From Mycobacterium sp. UM_CSW (lineage in GTDB: Bacteria; Actinomycetota; Actinomycetes; Mycobacteriales; Mycobacteriaceae): 64,000 bases of DNA. Below are positions 46,468 through 51,813 of the stretch, piece by piece. Where the stretch lies: contig NZ_AUWQ01000002.1 in assembly GCF_000455205.1 (NCBI RefSeq), forward strand, positions 1-64,000, in the 5' to 3' direction. The position numbers were made by a program, and so were the translations under genes. The first letter of the stretch is position 1. Each line of letters begins with the position of its first letter. Below the pieces are notes generated by a model. That model did no database searches. It had not been told where the DNA came from and was given only the letters and a program-made list of their open reading frames with translations.

Positions 46468-46541
46468 GGGGCGGTAGCTCAGTTGGTTAGAGCCGCGGAC
46501 TCATAATCCGTTGGTCGCGGGTTCGAGCCCCGCCCGCCCCA
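46468..46541 (+). tRNA. tRNA with CAU anticodon (Met, or Ile if lysidine-modified)
   Basis: A 74-base cloverleaf. Acceptor stem GGGGCGG pairs with CCGCCCC; D arm GCTC/GAGC; anticodon stem GCGGA/TCCGT with loop CTCATAA; T arm GCGGG-TTCGAGC-CCCGC; discriminator A; no encoded CCA. The anticodon CAT serves either elongator methionine or, after lysidine modification, isoleucine AUA codons; sequence alone does not decide. Its 3' 43 bases (to 46539) are repeated at 51532-51574, making it the attachment site of the downstream island. Confidence 0.93.
46497..46539. repeat. Left attachment core (within the tRNA 3' half)
   Basis: Starts GGACTCATAATCCG and ends CCCCGCCCGCCC. Identical to 51532-51574 over 43 bases, diverging immediately outside on both sides. 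It covers the anticodon loop, variable region and T arm, the usual cross-over region for tRNA-targeting integrases. Confidence 0.9.
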
Positions 46542-46613
46542 CAACCTGTTTGTGCAGCTAGAGGGCCTGTTTTGGCCCCGCTTCACCGGCACCCGTGTCG
46601 CCCGAAAGGCCGT

Positions 46614-46634
46614 CTTGTCGGTGGTTTGTCGTCA
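46614..46634. repeat. 21-base subterminal direct repeat, left copy
   Basis: Starts CTTGTCGGTGG and ends TTGTCGTCA. It is identical to 51362-51382 and lies 74 bases inside the left core. Possible recombinase or excisionase arm site. Confidence 0.6.
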
Positions 46635-46797
46635 GTCGCGTGACTTAAAACGACACGGCGCTACGTCGGCAACTGTTTGGCCCGGGGCAGCACCGGCGAC
46701 CCCACAAGGTCGTTCTGTGCGATGTCTTCCCCGGCAAGGTCCGCTGGTGGCAACATTGCCGGTGCAAAAAGACGAGAGGATGAAGGGGCACCGACAT

Positions 46798-47301
46798 ATG
46801 AACGACCCGTACACCTTCATTTTCTTCGTCCTGATCTTCGGCGCCATCACAGCGGCTATTGCTCAAAGGAGGCATCTCGGCAGCCCGGTCGGGTGGTTTG
46901 TCTTCGGTGCGCTGCTGTTCATCGTCGCCCTGCCTATGGCGATCTTTTCGAAGCCCGGCCTGCCGCAGGCACCACCCGGTATGCGGGCGGTGAAGTGCCC
47001 ACGGTGCAACGCGGTCCAGAACATTCCGGCCACACAGCCTGAGTACGAATGCTGGCAGTGCAAAGCCGCAAACCGCCTATGGGAACCGCAGCCGGTCAAA
47101 AGCGCCGCTAGGCCAGCAGCTCCGCAGAAGCCAACCGTAGCCCCACCGAAACCTGAGGGTGAGTCTTCGAAGGTGCGGTGTCACCACTGTCAGCACGTAC
47201 AGGTAGTGCCCCGCGACCAACTGACGTTCGTATGCGAGCAATGCAACACCAAGCTGAAACGTCGAGCTGGCGACTCCGCCGAGCGGAAGAGCACAACCTG
47301 A
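46798..47301 (+). CDS. Membrane protein with two zinc ribbons
   Basis: A 167-residue protein: two N-terminal membrane helices (about 5-21 and 31-48), then two treble-clef/zinc-ribbon units, CPRCNAVQNIPATQPEYECWQC and later CHHCQHVQVVPRDQLTFVCEQC (each CxxC..CxxC). A Pro/Ala/Lys-rich linker separates them. No family recognised. Function unknown; such tails commonly bind nucleic acid or protein at the membrane. I choose ATG 46798 (AAGGGG upstream) over ATG 46780. It is the first gene inside the island. Confidence 0.7.
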   Translation: MNDPYTFIFFVLIFGAITAAIAQRRHLGSPVGWFVFGALLFIVALPMAIFSKPGLPQAPPGMRAVKCPRCNAVQNIPATQPEYECWQCKAANRLWEPQPVKSAARPAAPQKPTVAPPKPEGESSKVRCHHCQHVQVVPRDQLTFVCEQCNTKLKRRAGDSAERKSTT

Positions 47302-47779: not shown

Positions 47780-48151
47780 GTGACAGTCGCCGGGCTGACC
47801 GGCAAAGCCGTAGTGGACGTAGAGGATTTCGATTGGGCGCGCCCGATTGTGGTGGACAACCTGTACCACAACTATTTTCAGCCAGCCTGCAAGGCCTTAG
47901 GCCTAGGAGCGGTACGTTTTCACGATCTGCGCCGTACCTTCGCCACGCTGGCCTTGAGCGCGGGGGAGCACTACATGCAGGTATCCAAGTGGCTGGGGCA
48001 CTCCAGTTTCGTACTGACGCTGACCACCTACGCGGACTACATCAGAGAGGAGGACACCGCAGCGCCTAAGTTCGCTCGTCCGGTTGCAACGGCGGCGACG
48101 AGGGTGGTGGCTCTATCGGCTTTATCCCGGGTACAGGGGACGGCGCACTAG
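47780..48151 (+). pseudogene. Truncated tyrosine recombinase (integrase C-terminal fragment)
   Basis: Only 123 residues remain of an enzyme normally 350-400 long. The catalytic end is intact: H48-x-x-R51 in VRFHDLRRTFATLAL, H74 in WLGHSSFVLT and the nucleophile Y84 in TTYADYI. The first catalytic Arg, the core-binding domain and the arm-binding domain are missing; an in-frame stop at 47759-47761 closes the frame upstream. The GTG at 47780 may not be used. The 3' end overlaps the convergent HEPN-motif gene by 86 bases. Confidence 0.82.
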
Positions 48152-48758
48152 GTTCTTGGAAGAAGTTCTGGGATCGGAGGCCATCAATCGCGTTCAGGAC
48201 GGCTCGGACATAGTAATCTGCGGAGTTTGCGTCGATACGCGTACCTTCGTGAGCCACACGATTTCGCAAGTCTCCTAGTTCTGCGAGCATTCCGACCAGG
48301 GGGCCAAGGATGAAACCTTCGCTCGCGAACAATTTGAGCATCTGCCGGAAAGGCGTAAAGCGGCCGTGGTCTGGGAAATAACGCTCAAATTCTTGTCTCA
48401 TCAATGACTCTAGATCCGCGAACGATGCCAGGACCGCAGCGGCTGGATCCAGTGCAACGAGTTCTTGGTACTTCGCAAATTTCTCATCCGTAGATTCCGG
48501 CGGTAACGGCGACCCTTCGCCAGTCGTCGTTGAGGGCAAGGCCTTTCGCTCCTCCGTTGCCTCCGCCAACTGCTTGGCTTCTCTTTCGAATTCGAGGTCG
48601 AAACCGGGTCCCTTCAGCCGTCGGATATCGCCAACGCGCGCCACGATTCCAGTTGCGGCCAGCTTGATCGGCTTTCGCAGGAAGACCAGTGCACCAGCCG
48701 TGACTGTGGGCCATGCCCACGCTTGCGACATTTGAACGATGAAATCAAGCCACGACAT
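48066..48758 (-). CDS. Membrane-anchored protein with HEPN-like RNxxxH motif
   Basis: A 230-residue protein. An N-terminal hydrophobic segment (about 13-28) could anchor it, followed by a charged linker (about 45-95) and a helical domain (about 95-200). The sequence LGDLRNRVAHEG carries R165-N-x3-H170, the R-x4-H form with a polar residue after Arg that marks HEPN ribonucleases. The tail is proline-rich. No close family recognised. Last gene of the island's minus-strand operon, two bases after the 309-residue gene. The same motif also occurs in non-nuclease helical proteins, so activity is a hypothesis. Confidence 0.66.
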   Translation of the reverse strand: MSWLDFIVQMSQAWAWPTVTAGALVFLRKPIKLAATGIVARVGDIRRLKGPGFDLEFEREAKQLAEATEERKALPSTTTGEGSPLPPESTDEKFAKYQELVALDPAAAVLASFADLESLMRQEFERYFPDHGRFTPFRQMLKLFASEGFILGPLVGMLAELGDLRNRVAHEGTRIDANSADYYVRAVLNAIDGLRSQNFFQEPSAPSPVPGIKPIEPPPSSPPLQPDERT

Positions 48759-48760
48759 GG

Positions 48761-49690
48761 TTATCCCTCATCGTCGGGGTTCTTCCAGTCTTCCGTGGTG
48801 TAGCTGCGGGCAAACATGATAACGTCGCCCGCCCACGGAGTGAAACCAGTTGTAAACGGGGCGCGTAGTTCTGGGCTCTTCTGGCTAATCAGGCCACGCA
48901 CGCCATCCTGGCCTTCAAAGAGGCTGTCGAACTCAAGAACGGTGTTGCAAACGTCGGTTAGGTCTGGGTGAAGGATTGTTAGTAGCTGTCTATTGGCCTT
49001 CCGCAGCGCCTTGTGGAACTCCATCGCCATCTGCATGATACTGGGATCGCCAGGCTTGCTGGCCAATTCGGCTTTGAGAGTTGCGTTGATCTTGTCTGAC
49101 TTGATCAACGAGTCTCGGTCCATGGTCAGATCGATGAAGGCGAAGGGGTTCCCCTTATTAGCGTATGCCTCAAGGGAAATTGAGACGGCGCGGATTGTGC
49201 CGTGGATCATCACGTTGCGCAGCTTGTACAGATAGCGGTAGCCGAAGTAATCGTCGTACAGCGAGCCAAAGATGCCCTTCGCAGCCTGATGCTCTGGTCC
49301 GTCCTTCTCGTACTTCGCGCAAATCTCTTCGTAAGTTCGCTCCTGGTGGTAACAGAGCATCGAAACCAGTGACAGGACTGCACCCCGGAACCGGGCTCCC
49401 AAGGACACCATGTCTGTCGAGTGCCCATCGATTTTTATTGGCCCGGTGGCGAACTTCTTGCTTGTGTCCCTCCACATCTCTGCGAGCGCTTTGAAAGATT
49501 CCTCGTAGTATGTGAACAGGTTCTCGACGAGGATGCCGTCTAGGGCTATGTATGCGGCTCTGTACCGTTCGTAGTCCACCTCAGATAGGTCACTAACGAC
49601 ATTGAACAGTGTATTGCCTTGGGTCGCGGGATCTGGCGGAGTCGTCACTAGCAATGCCGCACGTGACTCCTCAGGAGCGTTGTCACTCAT
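48761..49690 (-). CDS. Helical protein with HEPN-like RNxxxH motif
   Basis: A 309-residue, predicted all-helical, soluble protein. The motif R158-N-x3-H163 occurs in YRYLYKLRNVMIHGT, within a helix-loop typical of HEPN domains. The preceding region (about 40-155) contains several long helices with Tyr/Phe/Glu periodicity. No family recognised with certainty. Its ATG overlaps the stop of the 149-residue gene (ATGA), and it is followed after two bases by a second RNxxxH protein, so the two probably act as a pair in RNA cleavage or toxin regulation. Confidence 0.66.
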   Translation of the reverse strand: MSDNAPEESRAALLVTTPPDPATQGNTLFNVVSDLSEVDYERYRAAYIALDGILVENLFTYYEESFKALAEMWRDTSKKFATGPIKIDGHSTDMVSLGARFRGAVLSLVSMLCYHQERTYEEICAKYEKDGPEHQAAKGIFGSLYDDYFGYRYLYKLRNVMIHGTIRAVSISLEAYANKGNPFAFIDLTMDRDSLIKSDKINATLKAELASKPGDPSIMQMAMEFHKALRKANRQLLTILHPDLTDVCNTVLEFDSLFEGQDGVRGLISQKSPELRAPFTTGFTPWAGDVIMFARSYTTEDWKNPDDEG

Positions 49691-50136
49691 CGGATTCCAT
49701 CTCCGGACTCGGGATGTTGGTTGGTCGAGTCACCGCGTCTGTCTGGCGGCGTCACGTCCTTTATGTGATCGGCACTTCGTCCAAGCACGTTCTTGAGAGG
49801 CTTACCATCCGGGCCGTAGATGGTTATGTACATCGCGCCTGCGTTCTTGTCCTTGGCGAACCGATTGCGCAGCCACCGTGTCGTGCTGGCTAAGGCACTT
49901 GCCAAGGTTAGGTCGAGAACCTTCTTCGATGCCGCGCCCGCGATGAAGATGCCGATTGCCTCTAGCGAGTTCTGTAAGGAGAACTGCCCAGGGTCGGGCA
50001 GCTGAAGCGTGACGTTAAGGTCATCGCTCGCTAGTTCTGCCAGAAGTTCATGCGCCGCCTGCCGGGTCCGCGGGTCGAATGCCGTAGGGCCAGATGGTCT
50101 GAGTACCACGCTCGGCTTTTCGGCAGCGGTGTCCAT
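49687..50136 (-). CDS. Small membrane protein, EACC1-like
   Basis: A 149-residue protein: an N-terminal variable part, a strand (LNVTLQLPDPG), a hydrophobic helix (about 57-85, SLEAIGIFIAGAASKKVLDLTLASALAS), a Trp-Leu-Arg helix, then YITIYGPDGKPLKNV. This order (short alpha/beta part, hydrophobic segment, then a beta strand with YGPDG) resembles the effector-associated constant component EACC1 of ternary conflict systems. The resemblance is by eye and unverified. ATG 50136 is used; GTG 50145 is an alternative. Coupled by ATGA to the first RNxxxH gene. Confidence 0.58.
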   Translation of the reverse strand: MDTAAEKPSVVLRPSGPTAFDPRTRQAAHELLAELASDDLNVTLQLPDPGQFSLQNSLEAIGIFIAGAASKKVLDLTLASALASTTRWLRNRFAKDKNAGAMYITIYGPDGKPLKNVLGRSADHIKDVTPPDRRGDSTNQHPESGDGIR

Positions 50137-50190
50137 GAACCGCACACTAACTCACACGTCCGACAGGCCTAGCAACTTTCGATCGTCCGG

Positions 50191-50997
50191 CTAACCTGCT
50201 TCGTGGTCGGATTGGTCCTCGATATCCAGGGGTCGCTGGGTTAGCTCAAGGATCGCACCGACTGCCCGGTCGTCGACAATCTCAGCGATCTGTCCAGGGG
50301 CAAGGACCGCTTGACCGTCCCGTACCCGCCGGAGCAGCGCCCTGGTGACTTTCGCCTTGCACTCTGCCTCGGTGCGAATCTGATGCGCTTGCGCTCGTGC
50401 CTCTTCGGCCTCAGCTTCAAGTTTGGTGGCCTCTGCACGCGTCTTTTGCGCATCGGCCCTGTCCTTCTCGCGCTTGGGACCGAAGTCCCGCAGGTACTTC
50501 AATAGCCACCAGAGCGACCCGCCGCCCACAGAAATGCCGGCGCCCCACGTGACCCCGGTCAGGATGATCTCCAGAGGATTTGTGTATGAGATCCGTTCCA
50601 CTGTCGGCACCAGCGGCTCGGAATCCGGCATGGAGTTAAGCAAATAAGCGGCTTGGACTTCGGCGGGAGGCCAAAGGTTCGGCGGGCCAAATGTAGCGCT
50701 CGACAGGAGTAGGCGTTCGAGGATGTCGCGTATACGGCGCGGGTACGGATAGAGCTTGTCGTCGGGGTACTCGCCAAGCGGTTGATACCTGCGAGTTCTT
50801 AGGTATTCAGCTAGTTCGATTCGCGCATCTTGGTCAAGGGGCAGCAAGCGCGTCACGCGGTTGAGTTCCGACTGCCTGTCGAGAGACAGAGCTGTGTTGC
50901 AAACCGTGCTGGTGTCCCTGATGAGCTGGGCAACTAGCTCCAGCGGAACAGCAGCGCCGACGTCGATGCGTATTGCGACTCGCTGGACCATCGCCAA
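50191..50997 (-). CDS. Membrane protein with C-terminal coiled coil
   Basis: A 268-residue protein: a soluble helical N-terminal domain (about 1-135), one or two membrane helices (about 140-167, NPLEIILTGVTWGAGISVGGGSLWWLLKYL), then a strongly charged coiled coil (about 173-220, rich in Lys/Glu/Ala/Arg). The tail is short and acidic. No family recognised. It is the first gene of the operon on the minus strand and separated from the next by 54 bases. A sensor or scaffold role at the membrane would fit the layout, but nothing proves it. Confidence 0.6.
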   Translation of the reverse strand: MAMVQRVAIRIDVGAAVPLELVAQLIRDTSTVCNTALSLDRQSELNRVTRLLPLDQDARIELAEYLRTRRYQPLGEYPDDKLYPYPRRIRDILERLLLSSATFGPPNLWPPAEVQAAYLLNSMPDSEPLVPTVERISYTNPLEIILTGVTWGAGISVGGGSLWWLLKYLRDFGPKREKDRADAQKTRAEATKLEAEAEEARAQAHQIRTEAECKAKVTRALLRRVRDGQAVLAPGQIAEIVDDRAVGAILELTQRPLDIEDQSDHEAG

Positions 50998-51064: not shown

Positions 51065-51301
51065 TCAGCTCCGTAGCCTGTATCGAAGTTCACCACTGTT
51101 CGCGTCAACAACCCGCCCGTCGTCGCGAACTCGGAACACCAGGTTGCCGCTGTTGGCATCTACGACCCGACCGTCGTCCCTGATGCGGTATTCGGTCTGG
51201 CCGCTGTTGGCGTCACATACGCGAGCGCCGCGTACGCGAAAGGCGGTATTTCCGGAATTGGCGTCGCACATGCGATGGCCGTCCCATTGCTCTTCACTCA
51301 T
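51065..51301 (-). CDS. 78-residue protein of four 18-residue DANSG repeats
   Basis: After a short leader it consists of four near-identical units with consensus R-V-V-D-A-N-S-G-x-x-x-F/Y-R-V/I-R-D-D-G, that is VCDANSGQTEYRIRDDG, VVDANSGNLVFRVRDDG and two variants. The 54-base DNA period shows recent tandem duplication. The pattern (turn at DANSG, alternating strand, turn at DDG) predicts a stack of beta hairpins. No catalytic motif. It lies 67 bases upstream of the TM/coiled-coil gene on the same strand and may be its leader gene. Function unknown. Confidence 0.62.
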   Translation of the reverse strand: MSEEQWDGHRMCDANSGNTAFRVRGARVCDANSGQTEYRIRDDGRVVDANSGNLVFRVRDDGRVVDANSGELRYRLRS

Positions 51302-51531
51302 GACTCGAGGGTCCCACGAGGCACTGACAAATCTGCGCTCTTGCCTGGCGGAACAAGAGGCCTTGTCGGTGGTTTGTCGTCAACCTTCCTGCAACCTGTT
51401 GATTTGCCGCGATGAGCAATCAGCCGCTGCAATGCCCGATTCTGAAACAGAAGCGCTGGAAAACTAGGGGATTAGAGCTGCTGCCGGACGATTTTCGGAC
51501 CCAGCAGAGTTTGCTATAGCGCCAGACCTAG
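51302..51531. other. Right end of the island, no gene
   Basis: Holds the right copy of the 21-base repeat at 51362-51382 and otherwise no gene. It is the presumed control region of the minus-strand operon. No clear promoter boxes were identified. Confidence 0.45.
51362..51382. repeat. 21-base subterminal direct repeat, right copy
   Basis: Identical to 46614-46634, same orientation, 149 bases inside the right core. Confidence 0.6.
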
Positions 51532-51574
51532 GGACTCATAATCCGTTGGTCGCGGGTTCGAGCCCCGCCCGCCC
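51532..51574. repeat. Right attachment core (tRNA 3' remnant)
   Basis: Exact 43-base copy of the 3' part of the CAU tRNA at 46497-46539. The upstream half of a tRNA is absent, so this is the displaced end and not a gene. Open frames across it give the well-known GRAGLEPATN artefact. Confidence 0.9.
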
Positions 51575-51576
51575 TA

Positions 51577-51813
51577 CGTCGCGGATGTATGACCTCGGTT
51601 GATGCGTGACAGTTCGTCTTCGGCTGATGGGCGACAGTGTTTCGGCTGATGCGTGACAGTTACTTCGGTTGATCCTTGACACTCCTGGAATGAGGGAGTT
51701 AAGCGCGGCGTGCTCACCGTGGGTACGGTCGCGCACTTTAGTTGCACACGCGGGCATTTCATTACCCGAACAGCGACCAACGCCGTGGCCACGGATACCG
51801 CCGTACCTCAGGA
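51577..51813. repeat. Four short tandem repeats next to the island
   Basis: Four 20-base units related to TCGGCTGATGCGTGACAGTT start at 51595, 51620, 51642 and 51665 (spacing 25, 22 and 23). They look like multiple transposase-binding sites at the end of a lost insertion sequence. No transposase is present, so the type is not assigned. The rest of the region has no gene. Confidence 0.6.

Follow-up and report, generated by a model that had tools for sequence, protein, structure and literature searches.

Genes for RNA-cutting enzymes of the HEPN type often serve in conflicts with viruses. The present analysis concerns four genes, g1 to g4, in a small tRNA-borne island of Mycobacterium sp. UM_CSW, within a stretch of 64,000 nucleotides (contig NZ_AUWQ01000002.1, positions 1 to 64,000) that is called the window below. 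One described group of HEPN proteins, the membrane-associated ones related to DUF4145, has a strictly conserved Trp-Pro (WP) in a single transmembrane (TM) helix (Anantharaman et al. 2013, PMC3710099), and the same source defines the HEPN motif as Rx4-6H with N, D or H after the R. EACC1 (PF19953), according to the passages of Kaur et al. (2020, PMC7159879) that treat it, is part of a two-gene membrane conflict system whose second gene is of the caspase type. Phage resistance in M. abscessus GD01 has been linked to transposon insertions located upstream of a DUF4145 gene that belongs to a tRNA-Leu island, a candidate phage-inducible chromosomal island (PICI); the mutant tested had no adsorption defect, and the authors deem overexpression of the DUF4145 gene plausible (PMC10465359).

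The four genes are tightly packed on the minus strand in the order g1 (50191-50997), g2 (49687-50145), g3 (48761-49690) and g4 (48066-48758). Between g1 and g2 there are 45 bases when g2 is counted from its GTG start, or 54 from the ATG three codons further on; g2 and g3 share an ATGA, and g3 and g4 are 2 bases apart, an overlap and a gap that suggest co-translation. The cluster lies in an island with a direct repeat of a tRNA 3' end at both ends. The integration target is a tRNA-Met gene (anticodon CAT; 46468-46542, plus strand; ARAGORN, Rfam), whose 3' part is the left attachment (att) copy (46497-46542, plus strand), and the right att copy (51532-51577, plus strand) is a 46-bp sequence 98% identical to it, with the same core found elsewhere in the genus. 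The start-to-start spacing of 5035 bp gives an island of 5 kb. The layout proposed by a preceding, sequence-only reading of the window, four tight minus-strand genes separated by 54 bases, an ATGA overlap and 2 bases in a 5-kb tRNA-borne island, is thus confirmed by the coordinates of the open reading frames (ORFs) and the 46-bp repeat, its 54 bases being those counted from the ATG of g2.

We give an even chance to the reading that the four genes are reassorted conflict cargo, probably anti-phage, grouped around a membrane HEPN ribonuclease (RNase) in a decayed tRNA-Met element. The g4 product would be a membrane-proximal HEPN RNase whose N-terminal Trp-Pro helix anchors it or senses at the membrane, and g3 would encode its partner, probably itself a metal-independent RNase and thus a second nuclease. 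The products of g1 and g2 would be accessory proteins at the membrane, holding or triggering the RNases, which upon infection would cleave RNA and bring growth to a halt. Such a module would have been assembled by swapping, as relatives of g1 and g4 adjoin other HEPN genes in other islands. The island, the conserved motifs and the varying partners of relatives are observations; RNase activity, membrane location, the trigger, the antiviral role and the joint action of the four genes we infer.

The likely HEPN-type domain of g4

The g4 protein combines an N-terminal Trp-Pro helix with a likely C-terminal HEPN-type domain containing R165-N166-x3-H170. When the window protein was aligned with its relatives (29-43% identity), R-N-x2-A-H was invariant in all six sequences, as was W16-P17 within an A-W-P near the N-terminus, and E117-x3-R121 was kept in four of the six. 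Both g4 and g3 have the Rx4-6H pattern with N after the R, and the alignments place its residues at R165/H170 in g4 and R158/H163 in g3, just where the sequence-only reading had put them. An R-N-x3-H stretch occurs somewhere in 32 of 378 distinct predicted proteins of 150-350 aa from the fetched loci (g3 and g4 relatives included), so a single match means little and the conservation in g3 and g4 says more.

Comparisons with known families and folds lean towards HEPN proteins. Relatives of g4 give weak matches, below the cut-off, to DUF4145, HepT-like, Csm6 HEPN, RiboL-PSP HEPN or Swt1 HEPN; four of them (L064, L036, L037 and L039; L numbers denote fetched loci and G numbers genus genomes) have weak HEPN Pfam matches, and a fifth (L066) has a weak match to HEPN_Swt1. 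The PDB sequence profile search with g4 yielded 12 distinct sequences at E <= 10, comprising three HepN toxin, two Csm6 and one HepS sequence, four named just CRISPR-associated protein and two non-HEPN proteins, the top match being the non-HEPN RicF (E 0.015). A weak single-sequence AlphaFold2 model was searched against the PDB with Foldseek, and ranks 1-21 of 236 were chains of eight HEPN-containing entries (MntA-HepT complexes, a HEPN toxin, Csm6' and YutE; best probability 0.96), in a listing that names entries and not chains. In profile comparisons g4 scored P 1.1e-4 (probability 57%) with the RNRIAH TM protein of a Rhodococcus plasmid, 0.0042 with DUF4145 and 0.019 with HEPN_Swt1, while three unrelated families gave 0.22-0.31. 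A HEPN-type domain in g4 is therefore well supported, and judged from sequence and model it is very likely present.

The Trp-Pro helix of g4 recalls the "WP signature" membrane HEPN group of PMC3710099, although the helix of the window protein is only mildly hydrophobic. The likeness, as far as the description of the group allows, lies in the N-terminal helix with an invariant Trp-Pro and the C-terminal domain with R-N-x3-H. Unlike that group, g4 is unmatched by DUF4145, its relatives stay below the cut-off and the hydropathy of its helix is low; it also differs by its setting in a small operon of a tRNA island, the comparison being with the description and not with sequences of the group. The mean Kyte-Doolittle value never exceeds 1.6 in the window protein and reaches 2.62 in the relative in L040. 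Membrane claims consequently rest on relatives and motifs, because the hydropathy of the window proteins is low.

The companions g3, g2 and g1

The g3 gene encodes an alpha/beta protein. According to its AlphaFold2 model (mean predicted local distance difference test score (pLDDT) 83.5; predicted template modelling score (pTM) 0.73), R158-N159-x3-H163 terminates the helix 149-163. In the short form of the family (approximately 300 aa), the motif is kept in all seven aligned sequences (window included; relatives 26-48% identity), and H115 and R102 are likewise invariant. This alignment took in six of the eight named-contig loci, leaving out the broken L096 and L097 and including L092 as a partial sequence; several of the named-contig loci are the same records as genus-genome loci. 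The motif also occurs in two broken relatives outside the short-form alignment, L097 and L071. A wider alignment comprises 28 sequences, 22 of which have the aligned R and 25 the H; of 22 long forms (427-533 aa), which by eye seem mostly to stand alone, 11 have R-[D/H]-x3-H at the motif position, D and H being residues that PMC3710099 reports after the R of HEPN domains. As a side observation, a g3 relative of M. rhodesiae JS60 (L090, 516-6900) lies right behind a gene for a protein with a weak DUF4145 match, and a HEPN_Swt1-DUF499 gene lies two genes further upstream.

The small g2 protein has a hydrophobic helix of small residues followed by a ITIYGPDGKPLK strand pair, and it is EACC1-like in outline only. 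It gave no match to PF19953 at E 1, and no match to this model was found at E 0.001 in its own genome. Comparison by hhalign with an alignment of ten EACC1 sequences (over-cut-off matches chosen from 15 EACC1-model matches in other genomes) aligned the helix and strand with P 0.0026 and a probability of 11.5%; the controls g1 and g4 gave P 0.46 and 0.50. The best hydropathy of g2 is 1.34. The likeness, seen in sequence features, is accordingly a candidate one without a family-model match, and the identification of g2 as EACC1 in the sequence-only reading is not borne out. Nor does a ternary system with an EACC1 adaptor, as proposed there, agree with PMC7159879, which in the part concerned assigns EACC1 to a system of two genes, the second being of the caspase type; the ternary interpretation was rejected. 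Like EACC1 as described, g2 is a small protein with a small-residue helix and then strands, encoded just 5' of a possible effector gene; unlike it, g2 is unmatched by PF19953, and the 3' gene g3 has no caspase or cNMP cyclase domain (Pfam, E 1).

Elsewhere, a g2 relative in G164 adjoins a gene with a trypsin-like peptidase match just under the cut-off, a pairing that recalls, by analogy, protease-linked conflict systems, and G252 encodes a fusion of a g2-like stretch with a relative of the product of the gene that directly follows g1 in G177. Recurrent cargo was also noted around g2 relatives: proteins of 410-467 aa with a strongly hydrophobic helix and of 246-300 aa with a hydrophobic N-terminus in L058, and a trypsin-like protein in L060. 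Such recurrent cargo proteins of L131, L133, L058 and L060 are 44-75% identical between islands.

The g1 protein has a glycine-rich hydrophobic stretch followed, by eye, by a probable coiled coil, and translation may instead begin at the ATG at 50991, the start used by two relatives. Three full-length relatives are 69-71% identical to it, and a broken piece is present in G064. The ratio of nonsynonymous to synonymous substitution rates (dN/dS) is 0.16-0.18 against the three relatives, with dS above 1, which suggests purifying selection on g1. Genes in the fetched loci were called with a custom ORF heuristic, which overlooked the g1 of L056; that gene was located by tblastn and ORF listing.

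Relatives, their partners and rival explanations

Among 297 Mycobacterium genomes, the own genome included, g3 has matches in 41, g4 in seven and g1 and g2 in five each. Five relatives of g4 in the genus are near full length. In G144 and G263 the relative follows a DUF5343 gene and a HEPN_Swt1 gene (Pfam was run on G144, and the G263 copies were assigned by 76% and 91% identity), and in G136 it follows a DUF4145 gene. An integrase gene or remnant is adjacent to g4 or one gene off in four of the five and in the window. A g1 relative follows HEPN_Swt1 in G161, another in G281 follows a protein with a sub-cut-off AbiJ_NTD4 match, and a g3 relative sits right behind the TM-RNRIAH protein on the Rhodococcus plasmid. 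The DUF4145 protein of G136 has a relative in G177, encoded approximately 2.7 kb from g1 on the opposite strand; it was not counted as operon evidence. Conflict-type surroundings of relatives, in line with the sequence-only reading, were found: relatives of g1 and g4 adjoin HEPN genes in other islands. Since relatives sit in other islands with other partners, the four families probably form exchangeable cargo rather than a single fixed system.

The islands themselves recur at two kinds of tRNA gene. Relatives lie at the same tRNA-Met in G161 (g1), G045 and G164 (g2) and G010 (long g3), and near tRNA-Leu(TAA) in G177 and G281 (g1), G239 (long g3) and G077 and G263 (g4). A tRNA-Met link considered for the long g3 of G273 was rejected, as its tRNA differs at 13 or more of 46 core bases. 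Further copies of the tRNA-Leu 3' end (up to 4 mismatches) bracket the gene in G077, G239 and G177; G281 and G263 have a single copy within the fetched stretch. The G177 locus (L055) has three such copies, at 1438, 4797 and 8703 (0, 4 and 2 mismatches), with g1 in the second interval, and it looks as if two islands had been inserted in tandem. In the tRNA-Met island of G161 the order from the att copy inward is a DANSG-repeat protein, DUF5343, HEPN_Swt1, g1 and a split integrase, which is the same frame as in the window island with other cargo. Like the island of the window, the GD01 island is a mycobacterial one at a tRNA gene, with a gene of the HEPN family at the end. It differs in its tRNA (Leu vs Met) and, by its description, in its phage-related genes, whereas in the window island only an integrase remnant was seen; the parallel between its DUF4145 gene and g4 is one of setting and family description, not of sequence comparison.

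Beyond the genus-genome search, g3 relatives occur on eight named contigs, partly the same records as the genus-genome loci, and on 4 of 72,556 plasmid records, whereas g4, g1 and g2 had no match in these plasmid records. The order-wide search detected g2 in one of 140 genomes (its own) and g3 in eight of 140 (own included), and g4 in nine of 249 genomes (own included) from eight of 68 genera, mostly as distant matches. A phage-borne module was also considered and is unsupported: tblastn of g3 and g4 against 50,697 phage records, where g1 and g2 were not searched, gave no match, and pattern scans of viral contigs gave no confirmed relative of g4, g3 or g1 and one confirmed relative of g2 (L148). 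No description of this gene set was found in the open-access PubMed Central literature, judged from titles and abstract openings of the papers listed.

A number of results weigh against the reassorted-cargo reading. None of the proteins g1-g4 is recognized by a Pfam, NCBIfam (E up to 1) or PADLOC model, and g4 itself has no profile match over a curated cut-off. The single-sequence model of g4 has a mean pLDDT of 54 and approximately 63 around the motif (73-84 in residues 91-130 and 73-77 in 171-190), its Foldseek E-values are 0.076 or worse, and profile comparison of g4 with L090_3 and L064_4, both further HEPN candidates, gave no match (P 0.4). No 19-residue stretch of the four proteins exceeds a mean Kyte-Doolittle value of 1.6. 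One g4 relative, in G009, stands alone, and another, in G077, lies behind a protein that has an R-N-K-R-N-V-A-H stretch and no Pfam match. The results for g3 are adverse to a HEPN assignment: the fold search gave 382 PDB matches (E up to 10) with none at 0.001 and no HEPN among the best 50 of the 382; BFVD gave no viral match at 0.001; g3 profiles compared with g4 and five HEPN or HEPN-candidate profiles scored P 0.07-0.79, no better than controls; and the pattern R-[N/D/H/Q]-x3-H went undetected at the motif position in 11 of the 22 long forms. The PDB sequence search with g3 gave six matches up to E 10, none named HEPN, and no Pfam match at E 1 to a caspase, cyclase or other known effector domain was obtained. 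Of the two HEPN-like R-N-x3-H proteins in the sequence-only reading, the g4 protein has retained its likely HEPN domain through motif conservation, weak Pfam matches and Foldseek ranks, and a HEPN fold of g3 was not recovered by fold or profile searches. On sequence and model, g3 is best regarded as a candidate divergent HEPN-like RNase and not as a member.

The rival that survives best, possible though on balance unlikely, is a stack of independent cargo cassettes (e.g., g1-g2 and g3-g4, or four single genes) packed by chance with no joint system. The counts in the 297 genomes favor it, as each family is found without the others, and so does the occurrence of the long g3 forms, which by eye seems largely solitary. 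Besides the window, two families (g3 and g4) co-occur only in G004, G009, G136 and G263; some 70 kb separate them in G136 and more than that in G004 and G009, and G263 has them on separate contigs. The packing of g2, g3 and g4, however, suggests co-translation, g1 and g4 relatives repeatedly adjoin HEPN genes, and the G252 fusion joins a g2-like stretch to a relative of the protein behind g1 in G177.

An improbable alternative is a toxin-antitoxin or addiction module that retains the island, with g3 and g4 as toxins and g1 or g2 as antitoxin. It draws on the best fold matches of the g4 model, which come from MntA-HepT toxin-antitoxin entries (5yep, 6m6w, 7bxo and 6m6u), and on an element that lacks most of its integrase; but, unlike MntA-HepT, the window cluster has no nucleotidyltransferase partner, no such domain or other known antitoxin domain being found in g1-g4 (Pfam, NCBIfam), and g4 relatives have no constant partner. 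The fixed four-gene system of the sequence-only reading, in which a membrane sensor, an EACC1 adaptor and a pair of HEPN effectors would form a single conserved module, agrees with the gene order and packing in the window but is very improbable, since the set has no second instance among the 297 sampled Mycobacterium genomes (its conservation there was rejected, the window holding the single instance), PF19953 does not match g2 and the best 50 fold matches of g3 include no HEPN protein.

The tRNA-Met site and its possible meaning for mycobacterial defence

The element in tRNA-Met is a decayed integrative element. The C-terminal part of a tyrosine integrase (47780-48151, plus strand) is convergent with g4 and overlaps its end; it matches Pfam Phage_integrase at E 4.7e-6 and 26.9 bits, just under the 27.1 cut-off, and shares 81% identity with a 472-aa relative in G010 over residues 362-466 of the latter. 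No complete integrase gene was found in the island. Directly behind tRNA-Met, a predicted zinc-ribbon protein is encoded (46552-47301, plus strand), which has weak matches to zinc-ribbon families only. At the other att end, upstream of g1, there is a gene for a small DANSG-repeat protein (51065-51301, minus strand) with repeats of approximately 17-18 residues, and a related protein occupies the matching place in the tRNA-Met island of G161. The repeat search also found a 21-bp perfect direct repeat inside each island end (46614-46634 and 51362-51382), a possible, putative recombinase arm-type site. Just outside the right att copy, at 51595-51684, a 20-bp TCGGYTGATGCGTGACAGTT-like motif is present in four copies at 22-25-base spacing. 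The promoter and terminator scan was at or below chance. The G+C content is 0.56-0.61 at 47-52 kb vs 0.68-0.69 at 52-55 kb; values of 0.60-0.65, however, also occur at 38-41 kb and 57-64 kb of the window. The host genome is 6.39 Mb in size.

The tRNA-Met site is an insertion site in use. Of 118 genus genomes, 102 have its 42-base core with no more than 2 mismatches, and in eight of the 118, the window included (G000, G045, G080, G083, G102, G103, G113 and G116), a second copy occurs 1.7-12.3 kb from the first on the same strand of the same contig, which matches the expectation for islands carrying different cargo. The tRNA-Met island of G102 (L129, 577-11486) is 10.9 kb long and has an integrase and several proteins that are phage-like by eye; it is possibly a phage satellite.

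The reading of the cluster as reassorted conflict cargo can be taken further, to a combinatorial two-RNase immune design common to small mycobacterial tRNA islands, although we consider this extension distinctly doubtful. A HEPN-like RNase would be paired with a membrane-tethered WP-HEPN RNase, g1 and g2 would be interchangeable adaptors, a membrane event during infection would assemble the composite RNase, and g3 would represent a new, unrecorded HEPN family.

If the reassorted-cargo reading is true, a pool of unannotated RNase-type defence genes, of which PADLOC models match none in this cluster, would be moving among the tRNA-Met and tRNA-Leu sites of Mycobacterium genomes. RNA decay by WP-HEPN proteins in response to membrane sensing, an idea put forward in 2013 (PMC3710099), would then become directly testable in a laboratory mycobacterium.

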